DNA from: an uncultured Oscillospiraceae bacterium
Lineage (GTDB): Bacteria > Bacillota > Clostridia > Oscillospirales > Oscillospiraceae
NCBI GenBank assembly: GCA_947632175.1
Contig: CANROC010000019.1
Location: 1 to 58,007, forward strand
Direction of reading: 5' to 3'
Length of the DNA: 58,007 nucleotides
In this document: piece after piece, positions 22,235-42,200 of the stretch
Numbering within the stretch: the first letter of the stretch is position 1
How the letters are laid out: each line of letters begins with the position of its first letter
Notes under the pieces: model-generated
Databases searched by the model: none
The model's input: the letters and a program-made list of their open reading frames with translations, nothing else
Told to the model about the DNA's origin: nothing
Position numbers and translations under genes: made by a program

Positions 22235-23038
22235 TTAAGAGATCTTAGATATGATACAGCCGAAGGGCGCGAGGCCATTAGTGCCGCCGGCGTTGGTGCT
22301 ACCGGCGGTGCCGGAGGAGTAGACAGAGCAGAAATCAAAGCTGTTGCCCGAACGAGGAGAACCCGTCCAATACCAATGACTGTCGCCGCCCTTACGGTCA
22401 GCACGCACGCGGTGATGTACGTCTTTGTACCACTCCAACTGCTCGTACACGTTTTCATCACCGTAACATTCATCGGGCGGGAAGATCTCGGACGCGGAGG
22501 GGACAAACAGCTTATGCGTTTTTGCAAAGCGGCTTCCATCCCGCAGATATATGCGCGTCGTTTCCTTGATATGCTTTTGCAGAGCGTCCGGCAAAAGGTC
22601 ATAGACCTTATCCAGATAGGCGTCCAGCTCCGTAGCTGACGTGTTGATACCCAGACAATCCCGGCTTTCGAGGCGTACCACGCCGTCGCCCTGATCTGTT
22701 ACAACAAGCTCTACCTCCGTGCCGTCTTTGAGGGTGATTGCCAAGCTGTCCCCCACGCAGACGGTCAGCTCCCCGGTCTTGATTTTGGTGAGGGTGTCGT
22801 CAAGGTCAAGCGTCTCGGCATGGTGCGTCGTCAGCACGGTAGTCACCGGCTTTGTGGCTTCCTCCGGCTCTATCGCCGTTTGTCTCGTGTAGCCCTCCGG
22901 GACAGGCTTAAACTTGTCCCAGGTTCCGACCTCAAAGCTTTCTCCATCGTCCGAAGGGGTAATGAGATACTCGCCGTCTACGGCTACCGCCAGTACGGAA
23001 ACCCTTTTACCTGTGCTTTTGTTGATTACTTCAAACAT
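22235..23038 (-). CDS. Second DGR target protein (DUF6273-like C-terminal domain)
   Basis: The protein has 267 residues from ATG 23038, with AGGAGG 7 nt upstream. An N-terminal region (MFEVINKSTGKRVSVLAVAV) and a beta-rich middle (TVCVGDSLAITLKDGTEVEL) precede a C-terminal domain, LEWYKDVHHRVRADRKGGDSHWYWTGSP. This aligns with the end of the large tail protein (FEWYKDSSHRIKKRDGSAYY). The last 40 or so residues are variable repeat 2, ending GLAPFGCI plus five extra residues. No signal peptide is visible. It lies about 16 kb from the retroelement, beside the integrase and at the end of an accessory operon. It could be a second adhesin or a diversified binding protein; the partner is unknown. 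Confidence 0.85.
   Translation of the reverse strand: MFEVINKSTGKRVSVLAVAVDGEYLITPSDDGESFEVGTWDKFKPVPEGYTRQTAIEPEEATKPVTTVLTTHHAETLDLDDTLTKIKTGELTVCVGDSLAITLKDGTEVELVVTDQGDGVVRLESRDCLGINTSATELDAYLDKVYDLLPDALQKHIKETTRIYLRDGSRFAKTHKLFVPSASEIFPPDECYGDENVYEQLEWYKDVHHRVRADRKGGDSHWYWTGSPRSGNSFDFCSVYSSGTAGSTNAGGTNGLAPFGCIISKIS
22253..22362 (-). repeat. DGR variable repeat 2 (VR2)
   Basis: These 110 bp align without gaps to the template repeat 38562-38671. I count 19 mismatches, and every one lies at a T of the plus strand, that is an A of the template sense strand. Beyond 22362 the two sequences diverge at all base types, marking the upstream edge. The GC-rich end encoding GLAPFGCI is unchanged except for one fixed base (22259) that also differs in VR1. 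Confidence 0.93.
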
Positions 23039-23075
23039 TTTTAACCTCCTATTTTTTCCCGCGTAGCGCGGTGTT

Positions 23076-23780
23076 TTACTGTAAAGAACGGTTCTTTGGC
23101 TGACGGAGATAGGGCTTGTAAAGTTTGGGTATGCCGTCGAAATGGTAATACCGAAAATTATTCTCGCAGTATTCACGCTCTACATTTACAAGCGCCCACG
23201 CGGAATCCTCGCTACCACATTCCATGTATACCGGCTGTCCATCCATTCGGTAGAGATCTTCCACCGTTAACGGCCTATCTTCTCCTTTCGCCTCGCCGTT
23301 GTGTGTAGTTGGCTTCATAAAACAAAGCCAGTGGGTTTTCATGTTTTTACCGCTTCGATGCCCGAACAATGGCGGATATGGGGATAACGGTAAGATCTCC
23401 CGGAGCGGTATTTGTACCTCACTCCATTTGAAAACCAAGACCCCATCATCGTCCAATACCCGAAAACACTCTGAAAACCCTTTGCGGAGCATCTCTTTCC
23501 AGTCGCCTTTGAGACACCCATACTTCAAAGCTGTCCAGCCCGTATCTCCGGCCCGCTCTAAATGCGGTGGATCAAACACCACCAGCTTGTACGACCCGTC
23601 CTCAAAAGGAAGCGCCGTAAAATCGCAAACCGTATCAGGCTTGACTTCTATGTACCTGTTTGGGTAGTATTCGTGATATTCGACTTCCCGATTGTCGCAA
23701 AATTCTACGTCCGGGTTATCTTTATCAAACCAAAACATTTTGCTACCGCAAGCTACGTCAAGTACACGTTTTTGCGACAT
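23076..23780 (-). CDS. Class I SAM-dependent methyltransferase-like protein
   Basis: The protein has 234 residues. VLDVACGSKMFWFDK is a SAM-binding motif I; VVFDPPHLERAGDTGW carries a DPPH catalytic motif like the DPPY/NPPY of N6-adenine or amino methyltransferases; FRVLDDDGVLVFKWSE completes the Rossmann fold. It is probably a nucleic-acid methyltransferase protecting phage DNA. It is the next-to-last gene of the accessory operon. Confidence 0.8.
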   Translation of the reverse strand: MSQKRVLDVACGSKMFWFDKDNPDVEFCDNREVEYHEYYPNRYIEVKPDTVCDFTALPFEDGSYKLVVFDPPHLERAGDTGWTALKYGCLKGDWKEMLRKGFSECFRVLDDDGVLVFKWSEVQIPLREILPLSPYPPLFGHRSGKNMKTHWLCFMKPTTHNGEAKGEDRPLTVEDLYRMDGQPVYMECGSEDSAWALVNVEREYCENNFRYYHFDGIPKLYKPYLRQPKNRSLQ

Positions 23781-23784
23781 ATAC

Positions 23785-24219
23785 TCACCGCCCGTATTGC
23801 CAATCTTTCAAACACGCCGCAAGCGCCGGATCGTCCCAGACATTCCCGATTACCTCAATCTCGGCGTCGGCTATTTCATATAGGGCTACCCAGATCAGCC
23901 GCTTAAAATGGTTAATGATATACGTACCCGTTGCATTTGACCACTCGACGATACCGACGTACTCTACCGATCTGAATTTGAATTTTACGATGTCGCCCTC
24001 AAAAATCTTCTTTTCGTGTACGTCTGTCCGGCCTACGTATTGGCTCAAGGTGTCGGAGTAAACCGGGTATTTATCATCCTCGGTATAAATTATCGAAAAA
24101 TCACCGATGCCCTGGAATACGCCGCCCTCCTTCCATATGCTCGGCAAAGGCGCCCCGCCAAAGGTTACTTTCTGGCCTTTTCGCCGCATTTGACCCCTAA
24201 ATAAAAGTTCACGTCCCAT
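23785..24219 (-). CDS. YopX family protein
   Basis: The protein has 144 residues from ATG 24219 (a TTG at 24228 is possible). RELLFRGQ at the start and QYVGRTDVHEKKIFEGDIVKF are hallmarks of the YopX family, common in Firmicute phages and of unknown role. It overlaps the upstream 69-residue gene by a few bases. Confidence 0.85.
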   Translation of the reverse strand: MGRELLFRGQMRRKGQKVTFGGAPLPSIWKEGGVFQGIGDFSIIYTEDDKYPVYSDTLSQYVGRTDVHEKKIFEGDIVKFKFRSVEYVGIVEWSNATGTYIINHFKRLIWVALYEIADAEIEVIGNVWDDPALAACLKDWQYGR

Positions 24220-24418
24220 TTTCTTCAAACACCTTCTTCATCGTTTCGCTTATGTACGCGTGTAGCTTTTCTTCCGTCGTCTCGATGGGTTCAACCTCGG
24301 CGACCTCCCGCCTGATTATCACGGCCAACACCCCTATTGCGCTACCGATGTCGTTAATTGACGCGTTCTCAGCGCGTGCCTTTATCTTGTCGCCCTCACG
24401 CCATATTGTAATTTGCAT
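24209..24418 (-). CDS. Hypothetical protein
   Basis: The protein has 69 residues: MQITIWREGDKIKARAENAS, a beta start, and a long helix with IGVLAVIIRREVAEVEP. No family was recognised. It has an acidic C-terminus. Confidence 0.6.
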   Translation of the reverse strand: MQITIWREGDKIKARAENASINDIGSAIGVLAVIIRREVAEVEPIETTEEKLHAYISETMKKVFEENGT

Positions 24419-24430
24419 CGTACTGTCACC

Positions 24431-24868
24431 TCACAGCCTTGCGCCGCTCCCCGGTGCAAGATTGGGGAAAAGTTGGCAATCAATTATCGCCAAAGGCGTT
24501 TCTTTCGGGATTGGATCACTCGCATCGGGTATGCCACAAGTGCCTGTCACGGCGACTTTCGGTTCTTCCTTGAATAGTAAAACCGTCGATGTGTTAGTCT
24601 TATCTCTGATTACCAATGTCGCACCCAATGTACGCATAATGGCTTTCTCTTTGTCGGAGAGCGGATTGAGGTCTATGGCCTCCGGGTGTTTTATGATTTT
24701 TATAAGATCTTCTTCACTGTCACACGGCAACCACCCATTATTGTTGTCCCAATACTCCCTTACCCCGGCATGAATACGGTACACTCCAAACATACCTGGA
24801 TAACGCCATGCGCTATCTTCTTTCACTCCCAGCATTTCAGCCAGTCGAGATTCGTGTTGTCTATCCAT
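24431..24868 (-). CDS. Hypothetical protein
   Basis: The protein has 145 residues. It starts after AAGGAGG and a CTACACAAAC word. The first half (MFGVYRIHAGVREYWDNNNG) and the second (EKAIMRTLGATLVIRDKTN) look like a small mixed fold. No family was recognised. Confidence 0.6.
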   Translation of the reverse strand: MDRQHESRLAEMLGVKEDSAWRYPGMFGVYRIHAGVREYWDNNNGWLPCDSEEDLIKIIKHPEAIDLNPLSDKEKAIMRTLGATLVIRDKTNTSTVLLFKEEPKVAVTGTCGIPDASDPIPKETPLAIIDCQLFPNLAPGSGARL

Positions 24869-24899
24869 GCTATCCTCCTTAATTTGTTTGTGTAGCTTT

Positions 24900-25892
24900 T
24901 TAGTAATGCGCGCCTAATACGCCCTTTCCCTCCACGGGAACAAATGCTTTTCTACATAATTCCGGCTCGCCGCAACCGGGATAAAGCCCCGCCCGACAAA
25001 AGCAACGCTCCGAAAGGTCGTCTACGTCGAGCCGTCCACACAACTTACATTGATAAGCTCGAATCTTCGATGGCGCGTTTTGACACCCTTCTACGACGCC
25101 GTAAGCCGTTTTGATACCTATTCTGGGATCCTGCTTACGCTCTTTTCTTTTGCGCGCGAAAAAGGATATGTACGCATCAGGCCAGCCCTCCGGCTCCCGT
25201 ATTGGCTCAAGATCGTATACCAGCACCCACGGATTGCCAAAATCGTAACAGGGCTTATCTAAATGCGTCCACGTTTTTTGACCATCCGCCCACGGGTATC
25301 TTTCATATCTAACTATCTCGCCGTGTTTCCTTATTGGCTTCGGAAAAGAATAAAGAATATCCCACAGTCCGGCGTATGCCGCGGCGTTCGGACGGTTTAA
25401 AAGCTCGACGTGCCTTTCAAACCAAGCGGGATCCTGATAATCATATGGATCTTTCAACCCTTCCGCTCTTGCCTGTTCCTCGGTAATATCCTGTACCCTT
25501 TCTACGCGTGCGCCTGTCACTTTAAAGAATATACGCGCGGCCTCCTTCGGCATTTGCACGGACGGCCACCAGCGCGTGCCATAATTGATGCCGTCCGCTC
25601 GATAACCATAGGCATCGTGCGTCCCGTCTGTACCTATAACGCACCACGTTTCCCGAACATACAAAATATCTCCGGGACGATAGGGTAAATGCTCCCATGT
25701 AGTAACAACACCGTTAGACGCTATCACTATGCCACCTTGAGTGGTTATGGGCTTTTCTGAGGTCATAAGTCCTGCGGCGGTCATTATGGCGTATTTCGGT
25801 TGAGGCTTTATAATAATCCGTGTAGCCCTTTTTTCCGTCCTTACCGCCGCTCGTACAAAATCGTCGCTGGGGAATATAATAGGTTTTACCAT
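24900..25892 (-). CDS. ASCH-like domain phage protein
   Basis: The protein has 330 residues. The first 160 residues (KPIIFPSDDFVRAAVRTEKRATRIIIKPQP, HLPYRPGDILYVRETW) match the ASCH/PUA-like fold of phage proteins that read modified or structured RNA. The C-terminus has a Cys-rich zinc-binding segment (CKLCGRLDVDDLSERCFCRAG). Its biological role is unknown; RNA binding is family-based inference. Confidence 0.75.
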   Translation of the reverse strand: MVKPIIFPSDDFVRAAVRTEKRATRIIIKPQPKYAIMTAAGLMTSEKPITTQGGIVIASNGVVTTWEHLPYRPGDILYVRETWCVIGTDGTHDAYGYRADGINYGTRWWPSVQMPKEAARIFFKVTGARVERVQDITEEQARAEGLKDPYDYQDPAWFERHVELLNRPNAAAYAGLWDILYSFPKPIRKHGEIVRYERYPWADGQKTWTHLDKPCYDFGNPWVLVYDLEPIREPEGWPDAYISFFARKRKERKQDPRIGIKTAYGVVEGCQNAPSKIRAYQCKLCGRLDVDDLSERCFCRAGLYPGCGEPELCRKAFVPVEGKGVLGAHY

Positions 25893-26117
25893 TTATTTCT
25901 TCGCCTCCAAGTATTCGGCTTTCTTCTTCATGCACGGCGCCCTTTTAGGGAATTTGAGTTTGTCACTGATACTGCATTTTCGTCGGTGTCGGCATTTATT
26001 ACACGCCCCGGTTAAAATCGCCCAGTTGACAGCTCGCATCATAGCTGTTTTCTCTGGCGGGTAGGGCCTATCGAAAATAAGTACATTGATTTTGGTGTTT
26101 TTAGCTCCTTCGCTCAT
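25893..26117 (-). CDS. Cys-rich hypothetical protein
   Basis: The protein has 74 residues. CNKCRHRRKCSISDKLKFPK has a CxxC and another Cys, likely a small zinc knuckle. ACGGAGG is upstream of the ATG. The stop touches the start of the ASCH gene. No family was recognised. Confidence 0.6.
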   Translation of the reverse strand: MSEGAKNTKINVLIFDRPYPPEKTAMMRAVNWAILTGACNKCRHRRKCSISDKLKFPKRAPCMKKKAEYLEAKK

Positions 26118-26138
26118 TTCTTTACCTCCGTCCGCTCT

Positions 26139-26690
26139 TTACAGTAGGTCACGGTTTCCCGTATCACGCATTATCAGGATCCGCGCGAAACACTCCGCCG
26201 CGATAGGATCAGTAAAGACCCTTTCCGGGCGGACGCTCAAGGAGAACGTACTCCGCTGGTGGCATCTAACCACGTACTCCGTTGCGGTTACTCGACCCCG
26301 TCCTTTTGAATCCACTCGAAATTCGGTATAACAGCTCAATACGTCAGCGGGCATAACCTTGTGACTGGGAATATCCGTAACGATGTAAACGCGGGTTCCC
26401 GGCGTTATGTGCGGATAGAATGGGTTCTTTTCTTCCTCCTGCTCAAAGTCAAGACGTACAAGCGTGCCGCTCTTAATAGCGGGTAAAAGCTCCGCAGGAA
26501 GCGGCAAATAATATCCGTCCGACACCATCCCACCTTCGGGTGTAGCTCTCGGCTTCTCACTTCTAACGCTCAAGCCCGCGGCACTTCGACAGATCCAACG
26601 CGCCCACGGATAAGTCGTCTTTAACAATCGGAGGAACGCCCTTTCATCGTCCGTGAACGCCGGAAATACGTTTTTATCGGATTTACTCAC
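26139..26690 (-). CDS. Hypothetical protein, paralogue of the 27247-27762 product
   Basis: The protein has 183 residues. The N-terminal FPAFTDDERAFLRLLKTTYPWARWICRSAAG aligns with the N-terminus of the gene two positions upstream. The C-terminal half is different (RVYIVTDIPSHKVMPADVLS). It may be a fast-evolving pair sharing one domain. No known family was recognised. Confidence 0.6.
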   Translation of the reverse strand: MSKSDKNVFPAFTDDERAFLRLLKTTYPWARWICRSAAGLSVRSEKPRATPEGGMVSDGYYLPLPAELLPAIKSGTLVRLDFEQEEEKNPFYPHITPGTRVYIVTDIPSHKVMPADVLSCYTEFRVDSKGRGRVTATEYVVRCHQRSTFSLSVRPERVFTDPIAAECFARILIMRDTGNRDLL

Positions 26691-27229
26691 TTTGTATTGC
26701 CTCCCATGTAGTTTTCTTTGAATGTATCAAGGCTTTGCTTATAGGCCGTCATAAGGGCGTTAAACGCCTCGCACGTACCGCCCATATCCGGGTGTGCGAT
26801 CTTCGCCTGGGCTTTAAACTGGGCTTCAATTTCCGCCGTGTCGCGGGGGATATGGTCAAAGCCCATAGCCACAAAACAAGCCTCCAACGGCTTCCATTGT
26901 GGCAAAGCGGGAACACCTTCAAGCAACATATCAAGGCTGAATATCCCGCGCTCCACGGAACGGGCAAGCCCTTCAAGGGAATACACGATGTCACCGAATA
27001 GGTCACTGATAGCGGTTATCCCGCGCCCGGTGTCCGCTGATTTTTTCAAACTGTTATCGAAACGGTACACCCGCCCGTTATACTTCATCTGAACGAAACA
27101 GCTACGATTATCCCGGCTTGACGCGTAATCGTAGGTGTAATCGTCCTGGGGAACACCTAACCGGGCCATAACCCTGTCAAGCTTCCTCACGAAATCGTCC
27201 ATGTTCAAAGAATACTGCTTCTTTATCAT
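26687..27229 (-). CDS. J-domain (DnaJ-like) protein
   Basis: The protein has 180 residues from ATG 27229 with GGAGG 7 nt upstream. The C-terminal third (FKAQAKIAHPDMGGTCEAFNALMTAYKQ) is a J domain with the HPD tripeptide that stimulates host DnaK/Hsp70. The N-terminal part (helical, YDYASSRDNRSCFVQMKYNG) is of unknown fold. Phage J-proteins recruit host chaperones to replication or assembly complexes. Confidence 0.75.
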   Translation of the reverse strand: MIKKQYSLNMDDFVRKLDRVMARLGVPQDDYTYDYASSRDNRSCFVQMKYNGRVYRFDNSLKKSADTGRGITAISDLFGDIVYSLEGLARSVERGIFSLDMLLEGVPALPQWKPLEACFVAMGFDHIPRDTAEIEAQFKAQAKIAHPDMGGTCEAFNALMTAYKQSLDTFKENYMGGNTK

Positions 27230-27246
27230 ACATTGTCCTCCATCTT

Positions 27247-27762
27247 TCAAAGTAAAAGCTTGTGTCCCCGGTGTCTGACATACTCACGCCAACAATCCAG
27301 TCTCCTATCGGGAGGATCTGGACATTGGCTTTGAAACCTACACACGGACGGTAGCCATTCATCGGCGTCATTGAAATTGCATGAACACGGATCACCCACT
27401 AAATCAAGCAAGAGCGCCGCCACTTCATCGACGGTATAAAGCCTATCCGGGCGCTCCGGGGCGGGGCAATTCGCTAAAACTTTAGGCAAGAACGGAGGCC
27501 GGTAGTCCGGGCGGAGATCGTGGACACTCCACCGTCCACCAATCGTTATTGACGGGAAAAGCCTAAAAGGAAGCTTCACGGTATCGGGCCGCGCGGTGAA
27601 AAGCCCCAACTGATCCGCAACCGGCCAATCAGAATGAAGTGTCAGCCGGGTACGGTCACGGGCGATCCATAACACCTTCGGCCACACCCGACGTATCAAC
27701 CGCACAAGGGCATATTCATCATCGGACAGCCGGGGCGGGTAATCACTCTGTTTCACTCCCAT
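27247..27762 (-). CDS. Hypothetical protein, paralogue of the 26139-26690 product
   Basis: The protein has 171 residues. The start DYPPRLSDDEYALVRLIRRV with the following PKVLWIARDRTRLTLHSDWP matches the other paralogue over roughly 45 residues. The C-terminus is Cys-rich (DPCSCNF, VCRFQSQC). No family was recognised. Confidence 0.6.
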   Translation of the reverse strand: MGVKQSDYPPRLSDDEYALVRLIRRVWPKVLWIARDRTRLTLHSDWPVADQLGLFTARPDTVKLPFRLFPSITIGGRWSVHDLRPDYRPPFLPKVLANCPAPERPDRLYTVDEVAALLLDLVGDPCSCNFNDADEWLPSVCRFQSQCPDPPDRRLDCWREYVRHRGHKLLL

Positions 27763-27965
27763 AAATCCTTGCCTCCATTCATAGCTTGGTAGAGATCCAG
27801 GGAAATCACCGCGTAGATTTTCGTAAAATCCGCCGCGTCCGTGATAATGACCTCCCTGTTTCTCGTAACGTGTAGCGCCACTTCCTCCCGTCCGTTTGCG
27901 ACGCTTATGACCTTTTTATGGGTATCGTCGGAAAGTACCCGCTTTATCGCCAGCTCATTTATCAT
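27753..27965 (-). CDS. Hypothetical protein
   Basis: The protein has 70 residues from ATG 27965, overlapping the end of the ADP-ribosylglycohydrolase gene. It is a mixed beta/alpha protein (EVALHVTRNREVIITDAADF). No family was recognised. Confidence 0.55.
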   Translation of the reverse strand: MINELAIKRVLSDDTHKKVISVANGREEVALHVTRNREVIITDAADFTKIYAVISLDLYQAMNGGKDLWE

Positions 27966-29061
27966 TCGTCCACCCGCTCCCATCGGCTTTGTGCTTACGG
28001 CCCAGCGCCATATTACAAAGCCCATACGCGTAAAGACGGAGATATTTCACAAGCTCTACCCGGTCTTTCCATACGGTAGGAAGTCCAGCCGCGCCGTCGC
28101 CCATAGCGCCGACGATGTTTCCGCATATAGCCCCAGTGGTGTCGCTGTCTCCGCCGTGATTAACAGCCATAGCAATAGCGGTACGCTTATTGACACGGCT
28201 TCCAATCAAAGCGCAAAATACCGCGATTGCCAAAGCTTCCTCCGCAATCCAGCCCTCGCCGAGATCGCTGACGACCTCCGCCGCCCTCGCCCAATCAAAC
28301 TCCTGCATGGTTTTTATTTTCGGGAAACGCCTGTACAGATACAAGGCTTCTTCAAGCGCGTCGCCGACTTCGGAACGACTGTATACGCTCAGATATTTCT
28401 TCACCGCCTCTACCAACGGTACACCTTGCGCTACGTAGGCGATAATGTACGCCAGGGCGCCCGCCGCCTCTTTCCCCGTAGGGTGTCCATGCGTTATGCC
28501 AGCGGCCAAAATAGCCACGTCTCGCGCCCTCTCAGGCTCGTTGTAGAACAACAGGCCGATAGGGGCCACCCGCATAACGCCGCCGCTCCCTTTGCTCATA
28601 AGAACGGGTTTTCCCGTCTGCAAAGCCCCAAGACAGGTTCCACCGGGCGCGCGACGCGCGAATATCGCCGACTTGCCGCTGTTGTCCATGATAAACGGGT
28701 ACGGCTCCATCGGTTGCGGTTCCAGATAGCGTTCCCAACCTTCACGGCAACGGCCCTCTTGCGTGTATAACCACCGCTGATAAGCGATATTCAAACACTT
28801 CTCGATCTGAGAAAAGTCGCCGTTCGTCATAAGCAACGCGTTCGCTGTGAACAACATCATTTGCGTATCGTCGGAGATCTGCGCCGAGCGGTCTGCCTCC
28901 GTTAAGACAAGGCTTTGAATACCGTTCGGGCCATACTTGCGGCGTATCGCGTTGATACTGAAAAATTCCACCGGATAGCCCAGGGCATCCCCTATCGCTC
29001 CGCCCAGTAAACAGCCTTGGCAACGTCGGCCCAGGTCAACCGTTTGCATTTGCATCGACAT
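27955..29061 (-). CDS. ADP-ribosylglycohydrolase
   Basis: The protein has 368 residues of the DraG/ARH fold that removes ADP-ribose from proteins. GCLLGGAIGDALGYPVEF, ISDDTQMMLFTA (metal-binding DDT) and NHGGDSDTTGAICGNIVGA (second metal site) are all present, so the enzyme looks intact. In a phage it could reverse host or prophage ADP-ribosylation, including ADP-ribosylation-based toxins or defences, or complement the transferase-like protein at 3763-4371. Confidence 0.93.
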   Translation of the reverse strand: MSMQMQTVDLGRRCQGCLLGGAIGDALGYPVEFFSINAIRRKYGPNGIQSLVLTEADRSAQISDDTQMMLFTANALLMTNGDFSQIEKCLNIAYQRWLYTQEGRCREGWERYLEPQPMEPYPFIMDNSGKSAIFARRAPGGTCLGALQTGKPVLMSKGSGGVMRVAPIGLLFYNEPERARDVAILAAGITHGHPTGKEAAGALAYIIAYVAQGVPLVEAVKKYLSVYSRSEVGDALEEALYLYRRFPKIKTMQEFDWARAAEVVSDLGEGWIAEEALAIAVFCALIGSRVNKRTAIAMAVNHGGDSDTTGAICGNIVGAMGDGAAGLPTVWKDRVELVKYLRLYAYGLCNMALGRKHKADGSGWTNDK

Positions 29062-29066
29062 ACTTA

Positions 29067-29216
29067 TTACCTCCTTAGATTATCGCGTAGGCGCTCTATA
29101 AGCGCCCACAGCCCCGGTAAAACATAATCGGCGACTATACCGCCAACCGCAAGGACGCCGAAAAAGGGGCCAAGATAGACGCACATAAGGCCCGCGCCCT
29201 CAATAAACTGTCCCAT
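29067..29216 (-). CDS. Small membrane protein
   Basis: The protein has 49 residues with one hydrophobic stretch (LMCVYLGPFFGVLAVGG, continuing IVADYVLP) and a basic C-terminus RLRDNLRR. AAGGAGGGG lies before the ATG, and its own 3' end holds the AAGGAGG of the glycohydrolase gene. It is the first gene of the accessory operon driven by the promoter at 29270-29298. Confidence 0.65.
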   Translation of the reverse strand: MGQFIEGAGLMCVYLGPFFGVLAVGGIVADYVLPGLWALIERLRDNLRR

Positions 29217-29246
29217 TAGCTTCCCCTCCTTCATTTGCCGTTCAAT

Positions 29247-29262
29247 GTCAAAAAGATTTGAC
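29247..29262. promoter_or_regulatory. Operator for the 29.3-kb promoter
   Basis: GTCAAAAAGATTTGAC is a near-perfect copy of the phage operator (GTCAAA-N4-TTTGAC), just downstream of the -10 box of the neighbouring promoter. Confidence 0.7.
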
Positions 29263-29269
29263 TAACAAG

Positions 29270-29298
29270 ATTATAGTAAAATCTTTTTGACTTGTCAA
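29270..29298 (-). promoter_or_regulatory. Promoter of accessory operon 29216-22235
   Basis: TTGACA and TATAAT on the minus strand at exactly 17 bp, with an operator-like spacer (AGTCAAAAAGATTTTAC). It should drive the small membrane protein, glycohydrolase, J-domain, YopX, methyltransferase and second DGR target genes. Confidence 0.85.
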
Positions 29299-29308
29299 GT
29301 ATAAATAT

Positions 29309-29337
29309 GGCCGTCCAGTTAAAATTTTTGGACGGCC
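29309..29337. terminator. Hairpin between accessory operons
   Basis: GGCCGTCCA and TGGACGGCC flank an AT-rich loop, with a short T run on the plus side only. It insulates the operon ending at 29355 from the next promoter. Confidence 0.55.
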
Positions 29338-29354
29338 TTTTCCCTGTGTAGCCC

Positions 29355-29534
29355 TTACCTCGCCACCGTCTTAAAAGTGACTTCGTGTCCGGGGTTCTCT
29401 TGGATCAGCTTCTTTTTGAGATCGTCTACCATCATATTGTTGTCAAGTGCCGCTTGTACCACATCGACCAACTTTTTCCCGTCCAGATAGGCCCATACGG
29501 TCAGGCGCCCGCGACGTATAACTCTGTGTCCCAT
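29355..29534 (-). CDS. Hypothetical protein
   Basis: The protein has 59 residues: MGHRVIRRGRLTVWAYLDGK then a helical part and VTFKTVAR. AAGGAGG lies 7 nt before the ATG, so the start is well supported despite the small size. No family was recognised. Confidence 0.65.
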   Translation of the reverse strand: MGHRVIRRGRLTVWAYLDGKKLVDVVQAALDNNMMVDDLKKKLIQENPGHEVTFKTVAR

Positions 29535-29545
29535 TTTTGACCTCC

Positions 29546-29680
29546 TTAACTGTTTTTTATCTCTCTTAACCGTTCTTCGATATAGTCTGCTTGGCTCTGC
29601 GCCTGTGGATAGATCTGTACGATCTCCACAAGGATTTCGACAAGCTCAATCAGCGCGTCCATTTTTTCTTCCGGCGTCAC
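29546..29680 (-). CDS. Small helical protein
   Basis: The protein has 44 residues from GTG 29680 (GGAGG 9 nt upstream); ATG at 29662 would give 38 residues. It is almost entirely helical and acidic (ALIELVEILVEIVQIYPQ). No family was recognised. Confidence 0.5.
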   Translation of the reverse strand: MTPEEKMDALIELVEILVEIVQIYPQAQSQADYIEERLREIKNS

Positions 29681-29727
29681 AACCTCACACCTCCAATACT
29701 ACGCCTCGTTTCGTGTAGCCCCTGCCG

Positions 29728-30962: not shown

Positions 30963-31049
30963 AGTTAAATTTCTTTAACTGTCACCATTATAGTAAAAAG
31001 AATTTGACTTGTCAATAGCTTTTTTGAAAATAGTAAAAAATTTTTAACT
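30963..31049. promoter_or_regulatory. Operators around the 31.0-kb promoter
   Basis: AGTTAAATTTCTTTAACT (30963-30980) and AGTAAAAAATTTTTAACT (31032-31049) flank the promoter and match the dispersed operator pattern in a GTTAAA variant. Confidence 0.65.
30987..31015 (-). promoter_or_regulatory. Promoter of accessory operon 30940-29355
   Basis: TTGACA (31010-31015), exactly 17 bp, TATAAT (30987-30992) on the minus strand; the spacer AGTCAAATTCTTTTTAC holds an operator half. Confidence 0.85.
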
Positions 31050-34159: not shown

Positions 34160-34245
34160 GTCAAATTCTTTTAACTGTCCCCATTATAGTTAAAACTTTT
34201 TAACTTGTCAAGTCCTTTTTTGAAAAAAGTCAAAAATTTTTTGCT
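34160..34245. promoter_or_regulatory. Operators around the 34.2-kb promoter
   Basis: GTCAAATTCTTTTAACT (34160-34176) and AGTCAAAAATTTTTTGCT (34228-34245) flank the promoter, and the promoter spacer is itself an operator-like dyad AGTTAAAACTTTTTAACT. Confidence 0.7.
34183..34211 (-). promoter_or_regulatory. Promoter of accessory operon 34116-31096
   Basis: TTGACA (34206-34211), exactly 17 bp, TATAAT (34183-34188) on the minus strand, overlapping a perfect-arm dyad. One of five near-identical promoters in this phage. Confidence 0.85.
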
Positions 34246-34273: not shown

Positions 34274-34545
34274 TTCGCGCGCGCGTATAGACCCGTGTAA
34301 ATTAGGCGCATCAGGCGGGTAACGTGCGCCCTATACGCCTGTTTTGTTGTCCCCTATACAAAAAATTGTAGAAGTGTAGACAAAAGCCCAAAAAGTCCCG
34401 TATTTTCAAGGGTTTTAGCCGTCAACACTTTTGTCAACAAAGCCGTAACACTTGAAAATCTGTTGACAAAGCTTTGTCTACAAATTTTTGAAGTGTTTAC
34501 GACTTTGTTGACGTTTTTGGGGAAAGTGTTGACAACTTTGTAGAC
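34274..34545. repeat. Iteron-rich 272-bp block, copy 2
   Basis: This gap-free paralogue of 7683-7954 lies between the lysis terminator and the promoter of the first accessory operon. It shares the conserved stretch of TGTTGAC/TGTAGAC heptamers. A second copy of an origin or control element on the other side of the genome is unusual; see the first copy for details. Confidence 0.7.
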
Positions 34546-34580
34546 GCCGAAAATGCTACACACAAAAGGGCATAAAAAAT

Positions 34581-34610
34581 GGGCCGCAAAGGAAAAATCC
34601 CTTGCGGCCC
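34581..34610 (-). terminator. Strong terminator after the lysis genes
   Basis: GGGCCGCAA/TTGCGGCCC stem followed on the minus strand by a T6 run (ATTTTTTATG). It closes the late operon just after the holin gene. Confidence 0.88.
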
Positions 34611-34627
34611 GATGTGGTATTCAATGA

Positions 34628-34969
34628 TTATTCGTCCTGGCTGGTCTGCTCGGCTCTCTCGGTCTGGCCGGATTCGGTCATATGTTTCAAATTCAAAACC
34701 GCCGCCTCGATCATCTTGTCAAGGCTGTCCATGTCCAGCGTAAAGCCTTTACTCTGCAAAAATTTCAAAACATACGCTTTCTTTTCCTCGCCGCGATTGT
34801 GGCCCTGGAAAAGCTGTTCGGCGGCGTCAACCGCGATATTGACCCAAAGCTGGATCTCGTCGAACTGGGCCGCTGTGAGCTTGGAGCGGATAAAGGGGAT
34901 AAGTACGCAGGATATGATCGCCGCGACAAGGGCGATTACTGCGCTTGCGATAGGGGTGAGATCAATCAT
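34628..34969 (-). CDS. LLH-type phage holin
   Basis: The protein has 113 residues: one N-terminal transmembrane segment (IASAVIALVAAIISCVLIPF), then an amphipathic helical domain with a polar acidic C-terminus. This is the architecture of the LLH (Phage_holin_6_1) family, which forms the pore that lets the endolysin reach the wall. Its place as the last late gene after the endolysin fits. Confidence 0.8.
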   Translation of the reverse strand: MIDLTPIASAVIALVAAIISCVLIPFIRSKLTAAQFDEIQLWVNIAVDAAEQLFQGHNRGEEKKAYVLKFLQSKGFTLDMDSLDKMIEAAVLNLKHMTESGQTERAEQTSQDE

Positions 34970-35014
34970 TTTTTATTTCTCCTTTACAAAAATATTTGAC
35001 CGGGTTTCCCCGTG

Positions 35015-36508
35015 TCATGCCCGTGTGAACGTCCCGGCGTCCACCCATCCGTAGACCGTGCCACTTCCCGCGGCGTGGATAAGGTGATAGGGGTGCTTCG
35101 AGCCGGGATTGATGGCGGTGATCTTCGCCGTGCCACCCCTACACGTCTTGGCGGCGGTGCTGTTGGAGCTGGAATAGTGGGTATTCCCGGTGAAGCTCAC
35201 CATATCGCCCACCTTCCAATCCTCAGTCTTGCCGGGGATCCTGATTTTCTGGCCGGTGACTATGTAATTGGGATTTTTGATACCGTTATACGCGGCCAAC
35301 GCCTGATACGTCGTGCCGTATTTCGCGGCTATCCCGGACAGTGTGTCCCCTGTCTTGACGATATACACAACCTCTGCGCCGGTATTCGTCTCAGGCTGGG
35401 GCGTTGCCGGTGTGGAGGGCGCGGAGGGTGTGGCCGCGCCACTGAGGGCCTTTGCCGCCGCCGCAAAGTCCGGGCAAATGAAACCTCGGATATACCGTCC
35501 GTTAACGACCATTTCACGCGTGCCGACCTTGCCGCCCGACATATTCCCCTCGGCGACGGTGAACTTGCCGTTACCGCTCTTGATAACGATGCCGATGTGA
35601 TCCCCGGCGCCGGTACAGTCGCCCTTACCGTTGTCCTGCCAGTCGTAGACCGGGGCCTCGCCGATCTTGGGTACGTGGGCGTCGTCCTCGACCCAGATGC
35701 CCTTTTTCTTGGCGACCTCAATGTATTTCTCCACGCCACATTCCGTGCCGGTAAATTCAGCCATGCCCACCGCGATATACGTGGCGCTCGTAGTTGTCGC
35801 ACAGTGAGGATCGTTGACCTGTACCTTGTAGCCCCGCGCAAGGGGCTTGTGATTGTTGTAGATACTCAGGATTTCAAGGTGCTTTGCGTCGCCCCGCGTA
35901 GAGCCTATCCATGCGCTTATCGTATCAACAACCTTTTGCCGAAGCTCCTGCTCTGTCATGGTGCTTTTCCCTCCTGTCGTTTTTTCTGCGGCTTTGACCG
36001 CGTACTTGTCATAGATGGCTTGTCCGAATTTGGCCCGTCTCTCTTTCGCAGAATCGGTCTGATCAGCCGGACACTCATACCGGGTCAATACGATGTCCGA
36101 TGCTTCTTTGACGCTGGTGGTCTTTTTCAGCACGGCCAGCACGTTTTTATAGCTCTCTGTCAGCTCCTTCAAGGCGAAATTGAGCTGGTTTTCCAGATTG
36201 CCTATACTGACCTTTGCGGCGCGCGCGGCGGCAAGTAGCTTGGCCTTACGCTCCGGGTGCGTCCACTGGGCTATGCCGTAGCCCGCTTTATCGGTGGTGA
36301 AGCTACGGTATGTTCCATCATCCACCGCGGCGGTATAGGACGCGTCGGTGTGGTGCAGGGCCTTTTCATAGCTGTTTTGAAGGTTTTGGGGGTTAAGATT
36401 GCTTTCGCAATCGAAATTCCCCAAAAGGCCGGCTACACCGTGGGGAGTGAGGCCCGCGGCTATGAAAAAGTTATAGGCTTTTTCTGCATTGGTTTTTCCT
36501 GTGAGCAT
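35015..36508 (-). CDS. Multidomain endolysin (lysozyme, amidase-like, LysM, SH3-like)
   Basis: The protein has 497 residues. An N-terminal phage tail lysozyme-like domain (Phage_lysozyme2; GLTPHGVAGLLGNFDCESNL and GYGIAQWTHPERK, residues 1-165) is followed by a cysteine amidase/NlpC-P60-like domain with DPHCATTTSATYIA (candidate Cys) and GAGDHIGIVIKSGNG (candidate His). Then come a LysM wall-binding motif (VYIVKTGDTLSGIAAKYGTT) and a C-terminal SH3-like domain (VGDMVSFTGNTHYSSSN). It is unusually complex for an endolysin. It lies between the holin and membrane proteins and cleaves peptidoglycan for release. Confidence 0.85.
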   Translation of the reverse strand: MLTGKTNAEKAYNFFIAAGLTPHGVAGLLGNFDCESNLNPQNLQNSYEKALHHTDASYTAAVDDGTYRSFTTDKAGYGIAQWTHPERKAKLLAAARAAKVSIGNLENQLNFALKELTESYKNVLAVLKKTTSVKEASDIVLTRYECPADQTDSAKERRAKFGQAIYDKYAVKAAEKTTGGKSTMTEQELRQKVVDTISAWIGSTRGDAKHLEILSIYNNHKPLARGYKVQVNDPHCATTTSATYIAVGMAEFTGTECGVEKYIEVAKKKGIWVEDDAHVPKIGEAPVYDWQDNGKGDCTGAGDHIGIVIKSGNGKFTVAEGNMSGGKVGTREMVVNGRYIRGFICPDFAAAAKALSGAATPSAPSTPATPQPETNTGAEVVYIVKTGDTLSGIAAKYGTTYQALAAYNGIKNPNYIVTGQKIRIPGKTEDWKVGDMVSFTGNTHYSSSNSTAAKTCRGGTAKITAINPGSKHPYHLIHAAGSGTVYGWVDAGTFTRA

Positions 36509-36526
36509 TTTGTACCGTCCTTTCGC

Positions 36527-36853
36527 TTATTCTTTCAATACCGTGTCCGCTACCCGGATTGCCGCGTCAATGCCGTAGGCCTGGGCGAGATCCTTAACGA
36601 ATTGCTGAGCGTATTTGGCGCGGTTTTCGTTTCGGGCTTTCCAAAAGTAGTGTTTCGTGTCGTAACCGTCCACAAGGACTGACGCCCCGGCGAGCATGGC
36701 GACGTTCGTTACATCGTAGCCGGTGAGCGTACCGACGATTACGACGGCGATAAGAACCGCGGACACAAGGTAGTGAAGTATGAGTGACATTTTGGAGAAC
36801 TCGGCTTTTTTCAGCCGTTCCCCAATCAAAGAAAAGAGTTTTCTTTTACGCAC
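36527..36853 (-). CDS. Membrane protein, holin-like or lysis-associated
   Basis: The protein has 108 residues from GTG 36853 (GGAGG upstream). Two hydrophobic segments (LILHYLVSAVLIAVVIVG, VAMLAGASVLVDG) follow a basic start and precede a helical polar C-terminus. It overlaps the upstream gene. It may be a second holin or spanin-like factor; not assigned to a family with certainty. Confidence 0.6.
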   Translation of the reverse strand: MRKRKLFSLIGERLKKAEFSKMSLILHYLVSAVLIAVVIVGTLTGYDVTNVAMLAGASVLVDGYDTKHYFWKARNENRAKYAQQFVKDLAQAYGIDAAIRVADTVLKE

Positions 36854-37320
36854 CGCGCGTATACCTCCTCGATAAGCTCAATACTCAGTCGGGCTTTGTC
36901 GTTTTCAAAATTTTCGTGTGTCTTACAGTAGCCGTTGTAGTTGTTTATGTCCTCAAAGATGTTATTGAAGTGTTCCTCTGAGTGCTGGACTTTTCGGCGC
37001 ACTTCATCCGCGAATTGCAAGATCCGGCGCCGCGCGTCCAGGGCAGAACTTTCGGCGCTTTTTTCGTCCTGGCGCTTGTTGTATTCCTCCAATGCGATAA
37101 GCCGTTCTTTAAGGTCTGAGATAGCGTCACCGATAAGGGCTTGAGCTACACCTTTCGCGGCTCGCTTGACGGGCGGCCCTATCTTCTTCCAAAGCCAGCT
37201 CCACGGATTGATTTTCAGGGGCGAGATCTGGATAAGCGTAAAAGCGATTATAAGAATAAGGCTACAATCGCCTAAGAGCTTTCCCAGCCCTATTGATGTG
37301 AGAAATTCAACGATTCGCAA
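36826..37320 (-). CDS. Membrane-anchored coiled-coil protein
   Basis: The protein has 164 residues (TTG start 37320, GGGGAGG upstream). One N-terminal transmembrane helix (DCSLILIIAFTLIQISPL) and then long charged helices (DAISDLKERLIALEEYNKRQ, DARRRILQFADEVRRKVQHS). Typical of phage membrane proteins beside holins; the role is uncertain. Confidence 0.6.
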   Translation of the reverse strand: MRIVEFLTSIGLGKLLGDCSLILIIAFTLIQISPLKINPWSWLWKKIGPPVKRAAKGVAQALIGDAISDLKERLIALEEYNKRQDEKSAESSALDARRRILQFADEVRRKVQHSEEHFNNIFEDINNYNGYCKTHENFENDKARLSIELIEEVYARCVKENSFL

Positions 37321-37338
37321 GGTTAAATCATACCTCCC

Positions 37339-38385
37339 CTATGGGTGTAATATGGGCTTCCCTTCCATAAGGCCGGACATATTGAGTATTGTGTTGTGGC
37401 TGTCGTATTTTTCGGCATAGCCCTTCCACGATGTGAAAGATTGCTGTCTGGAATCCTCGGTCATAAGTCCTTTTTCGGTCATAGCGATATGCTTTTTGAT
37501 GGCCCGCCGCCGTTGGGTTATGTTTTTGGGAGTGAGCCGCATAACGATTCTACCGTCCTCAGTGATAAAGACGCGCTTTTTCAGATATTCAAAGCTGTCT
37601 GTATCAAAGCGGGCAATATGCGTGACCTTTTCGTTTAACGTCAGACCTTGTTCAAGGGACATTCGTTTTATCGCGTTTTCGTATTCCCGCAAATCACTTA
37701 TTTTGTCGCTTATCGCGTAACTATCATCCATATAACGGGCGTAACCGTGGACGCGTAGCCTGTCCTTCATGTAGTGATCAATGCGATTGGGATAGAATAC
37801 CGCGCAGATCTGGGAGATTTCAGACCCCAGACCCAGCCCACAGTCGCCCGGAAAACAGGAAATGAAGTAGACAGTTATCTCAAAGAGCCTGTCGTCCTTG
37901 ATTATGTCACGTAGCATGGCGATCAAAAGCGCGTGATTGATACTGCCGAAATAATTGTGGTAGTCTACACACAAGATACCGCCAGCTCTGCCGTAACGGG
38001 CTACGTGGTATCGTAAATGTTCCCGGAGCCGTTTTAGGGCGTACTCCGTACCACGGCCCTCAATAGTCGCCGCGTTATCGGTGATAATGCGCGGAATGAT
38101 AAGCGGCTTTAGGCAATACGTGACAAGGCATTTTTGTACCACCCGCTCTGAAATGTGGACGGATAGTATTTGACGGGTCTTTCCGCGTTCACTTATGGTG
38201 AAGCTGTTAAAGCCTCTCGACTTATAGGCGCCCCGTAGAAGATCCCGATGGAGGCTTGCGATCCATTGTAAAAGATTAAGCTCGAACATCTGAGTTGACT
38301 GTTTCCACGTAACACCCTTGAGACATTCGCGGGCGCAAGCGGATAGATGCTCGAAGGAAAACACTTCCTCATACGAAAATTCCAT
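37339..38385 (-). CDS. Diversity-generating retroelement reverse transcriptase
   Basis: The protein has 348 residues from ATG 38385 (GGGGAG 5 nt upstream); TTG 38448 and ATGs 38421 and 38397 are alternatives. It copies template-repeat RNA into cDNA with error-prone insertion opposite adenine. Motifs: LCVDYHNYFGSINH (motif 3, metal Asp D141), GLGLGSEISQ (residues 183-192, the GxxxSQ motif 4 specific to DGR enzymes, replacing the QGxxxSP of group II introns), and RYMDDSYA (catalytic YMDD, 218-221). There is no maturase or endonuclease domain. It forms the cassette target gene - avd - template repeat - reverse transcriptase. Confidence 0.95.
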   Translation of the reverse strand: MEFSYEEVFSFEHLSACARECLKGVTWKQSTQMFELNLLQWIASLHRDLLRGAYKSRGFNSFTISERGKTRQILSVHISERVVQKCLVTYCLKPLIIPRIITDNAATIEGRGTEYALKRLREHLRYHVARYGRAGGILCVDYHNYFGSINHALLIAMLRDIIKDDRLFEITVYFISCFPGDCGLGLGSEISQICAVFYPNRIDHYMKDRLRVHGYARYMDDSYAISDKISDLREYENAIKRMSLEQGLTLNEKVTHIARFDTDSFEYLKKRVFITEDGRIVMRLTPKNITQRRRAIKKHIAMTEKGLMTEDSRQQSFTSWKGYAEKYDSHNTILNMSGLMEGKPILHP

Positions 38386-38561
38386 GAAACTCCCCATAAA
38401 AACCGCGCCAGCGTATGCCATATTGTCCCGGTGCAAGCGCCAGGACAAGCCGCGGCGTTAATTCGCCCGAAGGCTTGGTCACTTTCTCCTGTATCATAAC
38501 TTGGGGAAATGATTTACTGTATCACGTCATGCTTCACTTGCGCTACTGTCCTGACGATTAT

Positions 38562-38693
38562 GATACATCCGAAGGGCGCGAGGCCATTAGTGTTGTTGGC
38601 GTTGTTGTTATTGGCGTTGCCGTTGGAGTTGACATAGCAGAAATTATTGCTGTTGCCCGAATTAGGAGAACGCTCCCACCAGTTGTTGGCCGA
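38562..38693 (-). repeat. DGR template repeat (TR)
   Basis: A 132-bp non-coding repeat between avd and the reverse transcriptase gene. It aligns gap-free to both variable repeats. In the variable-repeat frame it reads mostly Asn codons (AAC/AAT), a template that gives the widest range of amino acids when adenines are mutated. All 17 mismatches with VR1 and all 19 with VR2 are at adenines of the sense strand. The end beside the RT gene (plus CAT, VRs have CAG) is the mutagenesis-initiation mark. Confidence 0.95.
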
Positions 38694-38730
38694 CTAAACG
38701 ATAATGCAGAAAGTAACCAATTTTTACCTG

Positions 38731-39189
38731 TTATGACTGTTGATTTGTACCTTTAAAACGGGCGCTATGGACTTTTCTATCGTTGTCCATAACGCCCTTG
38801 AGCATTTTTGCTATTTCCACGCACACAAGGCCGATTTCTTCCTCTTGAGCGTCGATTTTGTCCGCCTTTACCCCGTCTGCTTTACGGGTCAGCTCTAAGT
38901 AGATATAGGCGATTGTAGGTATGTCGTCTACACAGCTTTTCGCGGCGTTGAAAAGGCGCTCGCGCTCCTTATAGCGATCTTCCGGCGTAGATACGTGCAT
39001 GAAGATAGCGTTACCGGTTTTTGCGAAGTGTAAGGCTTGTAGGCCCAGCTTGATAAGCATATCCCCGTAATTCTGCCGGTATTTTCCCGGATGGTTTGAG
39101 ACGATTTCACCGATACGGATATTGAGCCGGTAAAGCTTCCACAAAAATTTTGTTTTAGCTTCCGATCTGAGCCAGGATGGTACGGACAT
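38731..39189 (-). CDS. avd: Avd-like accessory variability determinant
   Basis: The protein has 152 residues with AAGGAG 7 nt before ATG. Its length, basic helical N-terminus (WLRSEAKTKFLWKLYRLNIR) and four long helices match Avd, the four-helix-bundle (pentameric in Bordetella phage) protein that binds the reverse transcriptase and the template RNA. It sits between the target gene and the template repeat, as in classic cassettes. Confidence 0.85.
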   Translation of the reverse strand: MSVPSWLRSEAKTKFLWKLYRLNIRIGEIVSNHPGKYRQNYGDMLIKLGLQALHFAKTGNAIFMHVSTPEDRYKERERLFNAAKSCVDDIPTIAYIYLELTRKADGVKADKIDAQEEEIGLVCVEIAKMLKGVMDNDRKVHSARFKGTNQQS

Positions 39190-39206
39190 TATCTTGCTCC
39201 TTATCT

Positions 39207-39231
39207 ATCGGGCGGGACAAGCCCGCCCGAT
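39207..39231 (-). other. Hairpin downstream of variable repeat 1
   Basis: A perfect 10-bp stem (ATCGGGCGGG/CCCGCCCGAT) with loop CTTGT in minus-strand sense, 12 bp after the VR1 end and between the target gene and avd. No T run follows, so it is not a terminator. It matches the known downstream DNA hairpin required for retrohoming. The VR2 hairpin has the same loop but a different stem; the template repeat lacks any hairpin. Confidence 0.8.
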
Positions 39232-39240
39232 TGCGAGATT

Positions 39241-42200
39241 TTAGATACAGCCGAAGGGCGCGAGGCCACGAGTGCTGCCGGCGGTGTTGTTACTGGCGCC
39301 GCCGGTGGAGTTGACATAGCAGAAATAACTGCTGGTGCCCGAATAAGGAGAACGCTCCCACCAGTAGTAGGCCGAGCCGTCGCGCTTCTTGATGCGGTGC
39401 GAGCTGTCCTTGTACCACTCAAACTGCGTCTCAGCCGACACTTCATCCTGCACAGCGTAAGACCGTGTGCCGAAGATCTCTCCCTCACCGGCCAGCGCGA
39501 AGGTGTCAACCGTTTCCTGGGTGCCGGAGGACGAACCGCCGCCCGTGCCGGACACGTTCTTGAACTTCTTGAAGATGCCCCGTAACGTCTCAGGAAGGGC
39601 GAGCGGATAGACCTCATTACACCATGCGCGGCGCTTGCTCTGCTCCCAGCCGCCCGCGTTGGTGCTGGACGGATTCATATACCCGGCCTCTTTCAAGCTG
39701 TCCTCCTGGAGAATAACGAAGTGGCACTCCTGGCCGTTCTCGAACTGCTTGCCGCCCTTGTTTCCGATAACGAGAACAACGTCCTGCTCGACATGGGCCT
39801 CACCGACGCCGGTAGCTTCCATAGCGGACAGGCGGACGGTGCGCTTATCGCCCACATTCCAGCCGGAATCCTCCACGGAAAGGTCGCCCCTGTTCATAGC
39901 TTCCACCATAGCGGCGATCTGTTCATCCGTGCCGTCCGCCCATGTGACTATCTCGAAGGGCGGCTTTTCCTCCACGGTTACGGTGAACGTAGCCGACACC
40001 GTGACCCCTTCCTCGGTGTAGCTCACCTTAATGACCTGCGGCCCGGTATTTTCCAGCTTGGAGCCGTTGATCGGATCGTACTGGCAAAACTGTGTAACGT
40101 CCTTATCCTGCCCGTCATTGTAGTGCGCCGTGACCTTGATGCCGGACACGTCAAGCGTCTGCCCCTGCTTGTAGGTCGTGGTGGTCGGTTCCTCGTCGAT
40201 GGTGATTTTCTGGAGCTTGACTTCTTCCGCAACGTAGATCGGGAAGTTGGTACTCTTTATCGTACCGTTTTCACTGTACGTAACTACGACAAACTGTTCG
40301 CCCTCATCGTCAAGCTGTGTGCCGTTGACGGGGACGGTAGTAACGTTGCTTGTCACGTCCTTTGTCTTGCCGCTGTTGTACGACGCCAGGACTTTCATGC
40401 CGGACAGATCCAGCTTCTCACCGGGCTTGTACGCCTGTTTCGGCATTTCGGTAACGTCGATTTTCTCAAGCACGACCTGAGTGACGGTAATGGGTATAGT
40501 CTCGATCTTCTCCACCTTGCCGCGGGAGTAGGTGACAGAAACAAACCGCGTCGCGGCGACAAGCTCCGAACCGTCCTCCGGGGTGTACGTACAATCGGCG
40601 GTAACATCTTCCTCCGTGCCGTCGCTGAAATAGGCCATAATCTGAACGCCGGACAGATTGAGCTGATCGCCGGAGTAGTAGGCAAGCTTTGTGGGCTGTT
40701 TTACCACGGCGATACTCAAGAGCTGATAGACCGTGACCGGGATAACCGCGTAACGCGTGATACCATCTTCCTCATAAGAGATTGTGATTTCGTCCAGGTC
40801 GATGTCGGTAAGCTCTGTACCCTCCGCGGGGTCGGACTTGACCTTATCGGTAACGTCCTTACGCACGCCGTCGCTGTAAATAGCGGTGACTTGCATACCC
40901 GACAGATCCAACGTCTCACCGGCGACGTAGGTAGTCTTGGTGGGATTCTGGGACAGAATGATGCTCGCCAGCGTCACGTCCTCCGTCTCGGTGATGGTGT
41001 ACGTGATCTTCATGGTCTGAGCGGGCGTCTTGGTGAAGGTGGAAATGTTGTTGATAGACGCCAGATAGCCCAGGTACGCGTACTTCTCGGAATAGTCTAC
41101 TACGCCGTTGGAAAAACGCTTGTGAGAGGCGATGCCGACAAGATTTTCGCTGAATGTCGGATAGCCGTAGGTATTCGCAAAGAAGTACGAGCTGTCAGTA
41201 CGGTATTCGGTGTCCCTCTCGCCCACGTCAATGGTGTCGTCCCTCAGAATGACGCCATAGCGATATTTGCCGTCGCTCTGGACGCCGCTTCCGAAAATGT
41301 CGATAAACCCGCTGACGGGGTTATACCGCATGATGAAAGTCCCTTGAATACGGAACGGTACGTCAATCTCCGTGACGCGCTTTGTGTCGAAAAGATTGAC
41401 CTTGTAAATGGTGCTGTAATCCGCGCTCATGCAGTAGAGGTAACTACCGCGAATGGCCGAATAAAAAGCGTTGTAGAAGTAGTACGAGCTTCCGCTTAAA
41501 TCGGCGTTGGGGAGACTTCCGCCGCGCGCGGCAAGGTTCAAAATGTGCCTCCCGGACAGCGTGAAGGATCCCTCGACCATAGACCAATCTGCGGGGTCAA
41601 TGGTCATGGTATAGATCACCGCGTCGCCGCTGTTGTTGGTGACGTGGCAATAGCCGTGGTACTTACCGTCAGACATTTTCTGGAAGAAGAAGTTATTGGT
41701 GAACGCGTGGGTGCCTTGGCTGTCAATGACCGTTTCCGGCGTGAAGGACGCCAATTCCTCATACTTCGTGTACGGGGGCGCGCTGTTGCACTCAGAATTT
41801 ACGCCCGCGCCGGTAGTGATAACGTCCCACTTAATGACCCTGATGCTCGCACCGTCGTAGCCGACAGTGATAGGCCGGTGTCCGTCGAAGTCCACCACCT
41901 GGCTACACCCAAAGAGGCGGGTGGTCTTATCGTTTGCGTTGTTCCTGTCGTCCTCGGACGGGCTGTAACCCGCGCTCTGATAACCCTCACAGTAATAGAC
42001 TTGATGAAGGTTATTCAACCAACCGTTTCCGGCCAGTCGGTGCGTCAGGCAAACACAAGAGATATTGCCGTTTGCCTGAGAGGTCGAGAAGTCCCAGACG
42101 TGCTTATAGCCGCCCGTGACCTCCCCCGATTCAATGAGATTGTACGTTCCCATGCGGGCGTCGTCTTTTGCGTCAGTCGAATCGCCGCCGTAACCCACGG

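Follow-up and report, generated by a model that had tools for sequence, protein, structure and literature searches.

The diversity-generating retroelement (DGR) of Bordetella phage BPP-1 serves a single target gene. Phage DGRs with two targets have also been published. In Roseburia phage Shimadzu two proteins are described as diversified, one of them a tail protein and the other of unknown function, and Faecalibacterium phages Lelie and CP11, which we liken to the present system by their description, carry a large and a small DUF6273 target of one DGR, a pair that is given no clear function in the accessible part of that report (PMC11792537). The system analyzed here, from an uncultured Oscillospiraceae bacterium, is of this known kind. 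It lies in contig CANROC010000019.1, the whole of which (58,007 nucleotides) is hereafter called the window, and which is contig C19 of a 3.54-Mb, 82-contig genome (G000; C, G and L numbers are our handles for contigs, genomes and loci). We consider it highly probable that this is a phage DGR in which one template repeat (TR) rewrites both a DUF6273 domain of the tail module and a small, remotely encoded C-type-lectin protein. What can be read from the sequence points this way, i.e. the anatomy, the adenine specificity, an address common to both variable repeats (VRs), the recurrence of the pair in relatives and the adenine-specific divergence of the remote VR among these, and the DGR may well be active in this very phage.

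On the minus strand of the window, target 1 (39241..42450, 1069 aa), an avd-like gene (38731..39189, 152 aa), the TR (38561..38693) and a reverse transcriptase (RT) gene (37339..38448, 369 aa from a TTG codon, with a later start possible) lie side by side. An earlier, sequence-only reading had proposed this contiguous layout for positions 39375-37339; the arrangement stands, but the gene of target 1 reaches 42450. The RT matches RVT_1 (E 1.1e-10) and phrog_1423 (E 4e-75), its best phage matches include RTs from phages with known DGRs, and it contains the motifs YMDD and GSEISQ, which we take to be significant for a DGR-type RT. Target 1, which ends in VR1 (39243..39375, minus strand), adjoins tail genes, in keeping with its earlier description as a tail-module protein, and contains a phrog_19291 match (residues 1-490), four Big_3 Ig-like stretches and a C-terminal DUF6273 domain. 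The avd-like gene was assigned by its position in the interval between VR1 and the TR and by the identity of its product (16-61%) to nine open reading frames at the same position in relatives, one of which, in phage Shimadzu, is annotated as Avd. The protein has no Pfam match, the best matches of a PDB search include only coiled-coil proteins, and its placement in a family failed.

The second repeat, VR2 (22249..22362, minus strand), is found 16 kb from the cassette at the 3' end of target 2 (22235..23038, minus strand, 267 aa, with a C-terminal DUF6273 domain), which bears out the claim of a variable repeat ending a different, distant gene. The TR is rich in Asn codons (AAC/AAT) in the frame of target 1. 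Ungapped alignment with it places all 18 mismatches of VR1 at adenines over 133 nt (39 adenines in the TR; hypergeometric P 8e-12) and all 20 of VR2 over 114 nt (36 adenines; P 8e-13), where the cores are the longest stretches without a non-adenine mismatch and the P values therefore descriptive. Non-adenine differences, for which the earlier reading had proposed to watch in VR2, do not occur over its 114 nt. When all direct-repeat diagonals of the window were scanned for a TR on either strand (in frames of 70 nt, allowing one non-adenine mismatch and requiring at least seven at adenines), just the two TR/VR pairs were returned, and together with the adjoining DGR-type RT they confirm a DGR with one template and two separate target genes. 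The likeness of targets 1 and 2 extends past the VR (39% over target 2 residues 139-264), as it would if the C-terminal domain had simply been duplicated and had then diverged in the normal way. Yet 20 of 20 differences at TR adenines are not expected from such a history, and the same pattern is seen in ten other DGRs; this explanation, to which we give next to no probability, is thereby refuted.

One of the mismatches in each VR is of another nature. TR position 38568 (minus strand) is an A, where both VR1 (39250) and VR2 (22259) have a C, a silent GGA/GGC difference in a Gly codon. Because the same A/C difference recurs in 21 of 21 VRs reached by ungapped alignment in 11 DGRs (the alignment of the 22nd, L054 VR1, stops short of the base), and also in 8 of 8 further VRs, we regard it as a fixed marker between the initiation of mutagenic homing sequence (IMH) of the VRs and the IMH* of the TR, and not as a product of mutagenesis. 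One more mismatch per VR sits beyond the IMH, and removal of both leaves 16 mutagenized positions in VR1 and 18 in VR2. The 17 and 19 mismatches counted at first are thus all at adenines, but each count includes the fixed marker. In the TRs of L044, L092, L093, L097, L095 and L096 the marker A gives TGA where the VRs have TGC (in L093/L054 VR2 alone was reached), so that a marker copied as it is would introduce a stop codon into the reading frame of the target.

Downstream of both VRs, a GC-rich hairpin with the loop CTTGT is found, with a 10-bp stem after VR1 (39207..39231, minus strand) and an 8-bp stem after VR2 (22213..22233, minus strand), while no such hairpin follows the window TR. The single-strand fold of the VR1 hairpin was equalled by 0 of 200 shuffles. 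Across the 11 DGRs a stem of at least 6 bp follows all 22 VRs, the best stem having the loop CTTGT in 16; such a stem is absent from seven of the TRs, and the best stem of the remaining four has a different loop. According to the accessible part of the work on BPP-1, IMH and hairpin are enough to direct homing to another gene, with a constraint on the loop (GRNA, 4 nt) but not on the sequence of the stem (PMC3240598). The CTTGT loop (5 nt) is of a different class from this BPP-1 and phage consensus, and differing stems with a common loop are what would be expected if one machine has to serve both VRs. The mechanism that we propose is that one TR transcript would be reverse transcribed by the RT and the avd-like protein, with errors at adenines, and that the cDNA would rewrite the C-terminal DUF6273 domain of target 1 beside the cassette as well as the C-type-lectin domain of target 2, 16 kb away. 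Both VRs would offer it the same address, i.e. a GC-rich IMH with C for the A of the TR, followed by the GC-rich hairpin with loop CTTGT, and for this reason distance need not matter.

The earlier reading had suggested a search of related phages for the same pair, and the pair was found. Target-2 homologs were identified once on C6 and twice on C3 of the host genome, in phage Shimadzu, at 11 IMG/VR loci and at 8 GTDB loci, one of these being the G369 contig (with target 2 and the RT as single-protein queries IMG/VR gave no match, while an alignment scan did find loci). An RT match was obtained in 12 cases: for the window, for C6 and for 10 of the 16 records or genomes checked, with L056, L057 and L059 falling outside these 16. 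In 11 of the 12 that have both an RT and a target-2 homolog, phage Shimadzu included, one TR matches the VR of the cassette and that of the target-2 homolog, although in G436 the two VRs lie on separate contigs. The sole exception is L062, a 244-kb phage, where the homolog is distant and has no match to the TR close to the RT. Of the 22 VR cores in these 11 DGRs, 18 are without any non-adenine mismatch and four have one.

Two other DGRs reside in the host genome. That on C6 (L007 8508-15107), a prophage-like locus with its own dual-target DGR, has a TR with 87% identity to the window TR over 98 bp, and the two RTs are 41% identical. In the host genome the window TR matches its own three sites and three C6 sites; cross-homing between the two elements is unlikely, as all three C6 matches end before the IMH. 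The third DGR, on C7 (L049 8748-9277), is distant, with 17 of 17 VR mismatches at adenines and a hairpin loop TTTA. The two paralogs on C3 (L045 10225-10998 and L046 10145-10774) are separated by 35 kb of a 214-kb contig; a DNA polymerase III alpha gene with an intein is near one of them and a GmrSD_N gene near the other. They were considered as extra targets and rejected, since the stretches examined gave no TR match and the gene ends are not accompanied by a GC-rich hairpin; C3b has a single 6-bp stem farther downstream. The target-2 family thus seems to exist also without a DGR. ADP-ribosylglycohydrolase and PAPS-reductase-like genes, possibly serving counter-defence, were seen near target 2 at L053 (8341-9396) and L054 (1947-2765).

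Remote VRs are not confined to these relatives. An RT match (E 1e-20 or better) was present in 40 out of 400 genomes of the host's family, its own included. The RT loci of 29 genomes (among them G283 and G015) were scanned, and 27 yielded a TR via a VR match. In eight of the 27 a VR lay apart from the cassette, be it on the same contig or on a different one, a rough rate, as candidates were picked by their similarity to target 2 so that others are missed, and as the TRs of G004 and G063 were recognized through the remote match itself. The VR is on another contig in G004, G063, G411 and G276, where a contig break could mask closeness, and on the same contig, about 29-39 kb off, in G237, G333, G381 and G261. 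The eight cores have 11-23 mismatches at adenines and either no (three genomes) or one (five genomes) non-adenine mismatch. That remote second targets are rare, as had been supposed, does not apply to this group, given 11 of 12 paired relatives and 8 of 27 family genomes. The pair is not universal, since G298 has a TR and VR1 only; so does G266, where in addition a different TR has one short, weak match on another contig, and similar weak matches occur in G239 and G303. G261 possibly has two remote targets, with TR-like sites in different small genes (C1 83685-83768 and 89088-89166) at distances of about 29 and 34 kb from its TR, of which the first alone passed the adenine-specific scan. At the level of the order, a profile search gave target-2-like matches at E 1e-20 or better in 10 out of 394 genomes, the host's own included; large targets are among these matches.

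Among close relatives the remote VR diverges in the manner expected of a DGR target. The VR2s of L065 and L066 differ at 17 positions, all of them among the 29 adenines of the TR (that of the L066 genome being the reference) and none among the 92 other sites, while the remainder of the gene has 28 differences in 719. Against L067, the VR2s of L065 and L066 have 14 and 17 differences at adenines, respectively. L060 and L061 differ at 22 VR2 positions, 17 at adenines; at the remaining five the TRs of the two loci differ in the same way, as though a fresh copy of its own TR had been made into each VR2. In L055, L057 and L059, 522 nt of the gene are identical before divergence sets in; L057 and L059 end within VR2, in the way that assemblies may break at hypervariable sites. 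With the VR left out, nine out of ten relatives are closer to the window in target 2 than in the C-terminal part of target 1, and in L052 the two are level (52%); target 1 of L068 is a fragment in this comparison.

Several observations weigh against the reading of a conserved two-target DGR with an intracellular second target, or limit what supports it. The fold of the VR2 hairpin, unremarkable on its own, was equalled by 12 of 200 shuffles (that of the TR by 16 of 200), and in the eight further VRs a stem of at least 6 bp follows four, with the loop CTTGT in none. The VR2s of L065 and L066 each show three non-adenine differences from L067. RT distances are correlated with those of target 2 (r 0.91), target 1 (0.90; VRs removed from both) and Avd (0.97, whole protein; n=11, permutation p 1e-4 each), but the RT/target-2 correlation was made without a control gene and so shows co-inheritance, not a special bond. 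A DNA methyltransferase is near 12 of 26 target-2-like or remote-VR genes, a count from partly scanned neighbors and without a background rate, and target 2 of C6 sits a few kb behind an amidase gene and not within a replication operon. There was no RT match in the whole genomes behind L064, L065, L067 and L070 or in the records L055 and L058, and no TR match in the genome of G369; these could be either assembly gaps or orphan targets. The four genomes with a homolog but no RT match, together with the C3 paralogs that match no TR found and have no GC-rich hairpin near the gene end, are what would be seen if VR2 were a leftover here, diversified once and no longer rewritten. This we hold to be quite improbable, as the IMH, the hairpin and the 114-nt core without non-adenine mismatch are intact, while the rest of target 2 has only 52-57% identity to its nearest relatives.

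The predicted structure of target 2 has a C-type-lectin fold over residues 89-267, and VR2 falls within this domain according to the model; for VR1, target 1 was assigned by DUF6273 only. A crude hydropathy scan shows no strongly hydrophobic segment in target 2, and PADLOC and NCBIfam contain no family that matches it. For its N-terminal part (residues 1-45), which is beta-rich, the Foldseek matches to Tudor/SH3 were short and weak. When the PDB was searched by sequence with the target-2 profile, only weak matches came up, nearly all to fatty-acid or retinoic-acid binding proteins, and these were disregarded. A DNA methyltransferase gene (23076..23780, minus strand; type II / orphan methyltransferase in PADLOC) lies 37 bp upstream on the same strand, and target 2 is apparently the last gene of an early operon behind it. 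The earlier placement of target 2 in the early or accessory region is upheld, while its non-structural nature is suggested by this context and by the lack of a signal-like hydrophobic segment. In one bacterium, DGR targets have been interpreted as conflict-system sensors, several of them predicted to be cytoplasmic in the accessible part of that study (PMC10907252), and by analogy the small target could be an intracellular variable binder. Its likeliest use would be counter-defence or the exclusion of rivals, while the tail target would tune adsorption, a proposal that we make with rather less than even confidence. That target 2 is instead another virion or receptor-binding protein, made from a displaced gene, with both targets serving adsorption, seems to us doubtful. 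In its favor, target 2 shares DUF6273 with target 1, its BFVD structural neighbors include a tail-collar fiber and a receptor-binding protein, and dual-target DGRs have been interpreted in terms of adhesion proteins, as far as the accessible text goes (PMC10743442). Nevertheless, Pfam finds nothing but DUF6273 in target 2, with no Ig repeat or tail domain, target 2 and its homologs are just 190-306 aa long, and the target-2 loci examined adjoin DNA methyltransferases, Erf/SSB, ParB or integrase, not the tail module. Most tentatively among our proposals for an intracellular role, a conserved module may diversify an outer (tail) binder and an inner, non-virion one, the latter expressed early with DNA methyltransferases and acting antibody-like against defense proteins or rival phages; outside the VR, the remote partner would vary less than its tail counterpart, and it would be inherited with the RT.

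The window closes on itself as a 57,930-bp circle (positions 1-77 and 57931-58007 are 100% identical), and with genes for terminase, portal, major head protein, tape measure, endolysin, DNA polymerase, helicases and a large serine recombinase it represents a tailed phage, probably temperate. The recombinase (integrase) gene (20558..22168, plus strand) is convergent with target 2. An unexplained 272-nt direct repeat (7683-7954 and 34274-34545, 86% identity) is also present, as are AT-rich 54-nt repeats (29247-29300, 30964-31017, 34160-34213 and 10461-10514) with TTGACT/AGTCAA-like dyads, possibly operators.

Phage DGRs are mostly interpreted as a means of switching host range. The frequent location of a second target among early, methyltransferase-linked genes, with the DGR address kept across many phages, suggests that the mutator also feeds intracellular conflict, and phage Shimadzu (Roseburia intestinalis) and a prophage-like locus in Lacrimispora defluvii put the question within reach of cultured hosts. 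Remote targets are probably undercounted, since a large DGR survey states, in its accessible part, that its approach would miss them (PMC8144416); the fixed A/C marker of the IMH, plus the hairpin where present, is a simple way to find them. No paper was found that describes the CTTGT loop, the IMH marker common to the VRs or the fact that these phages conserve the small target, a weak negative as subscription papers were mostly outside the search. Phage Shimadzu (LR596903.1) is likewise built of tail fiber, Avd, TR and RT, with a small gene (orf43) that ends in VR2 13.9 kb away, between methyltransferase and Erf genes, and it shares the IMH marker and hairpins after both VRs. It differs in its RT (43% identity) and target 2 (about 35% outside the VR), in its hairpin loops (CTCGT and CTATGT instead of CTTGT) and in that its target 2 is not beside the integrase. 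Four induced gut prophages resemble the window, by their description, in a distal second VR near methyltransferases, whereas most DGRs of that study, in its accessible part, are in Bacteroidota phages (PMC12629997). In the nd4/nd12 tentaclin DGRs, one TR also serves two C-type-lectin targets, but, as far as described in the accessible text, both lie inside the cassette, and the VR of target 1 is near the gene start with the Ig domains behind it (PMC10743442). With BPP-1, as described in the accessible part of that work, the window has in common the TR, the avd gene, the RT and a VR with IMH and GC-rich hairpin (PMC3240598).

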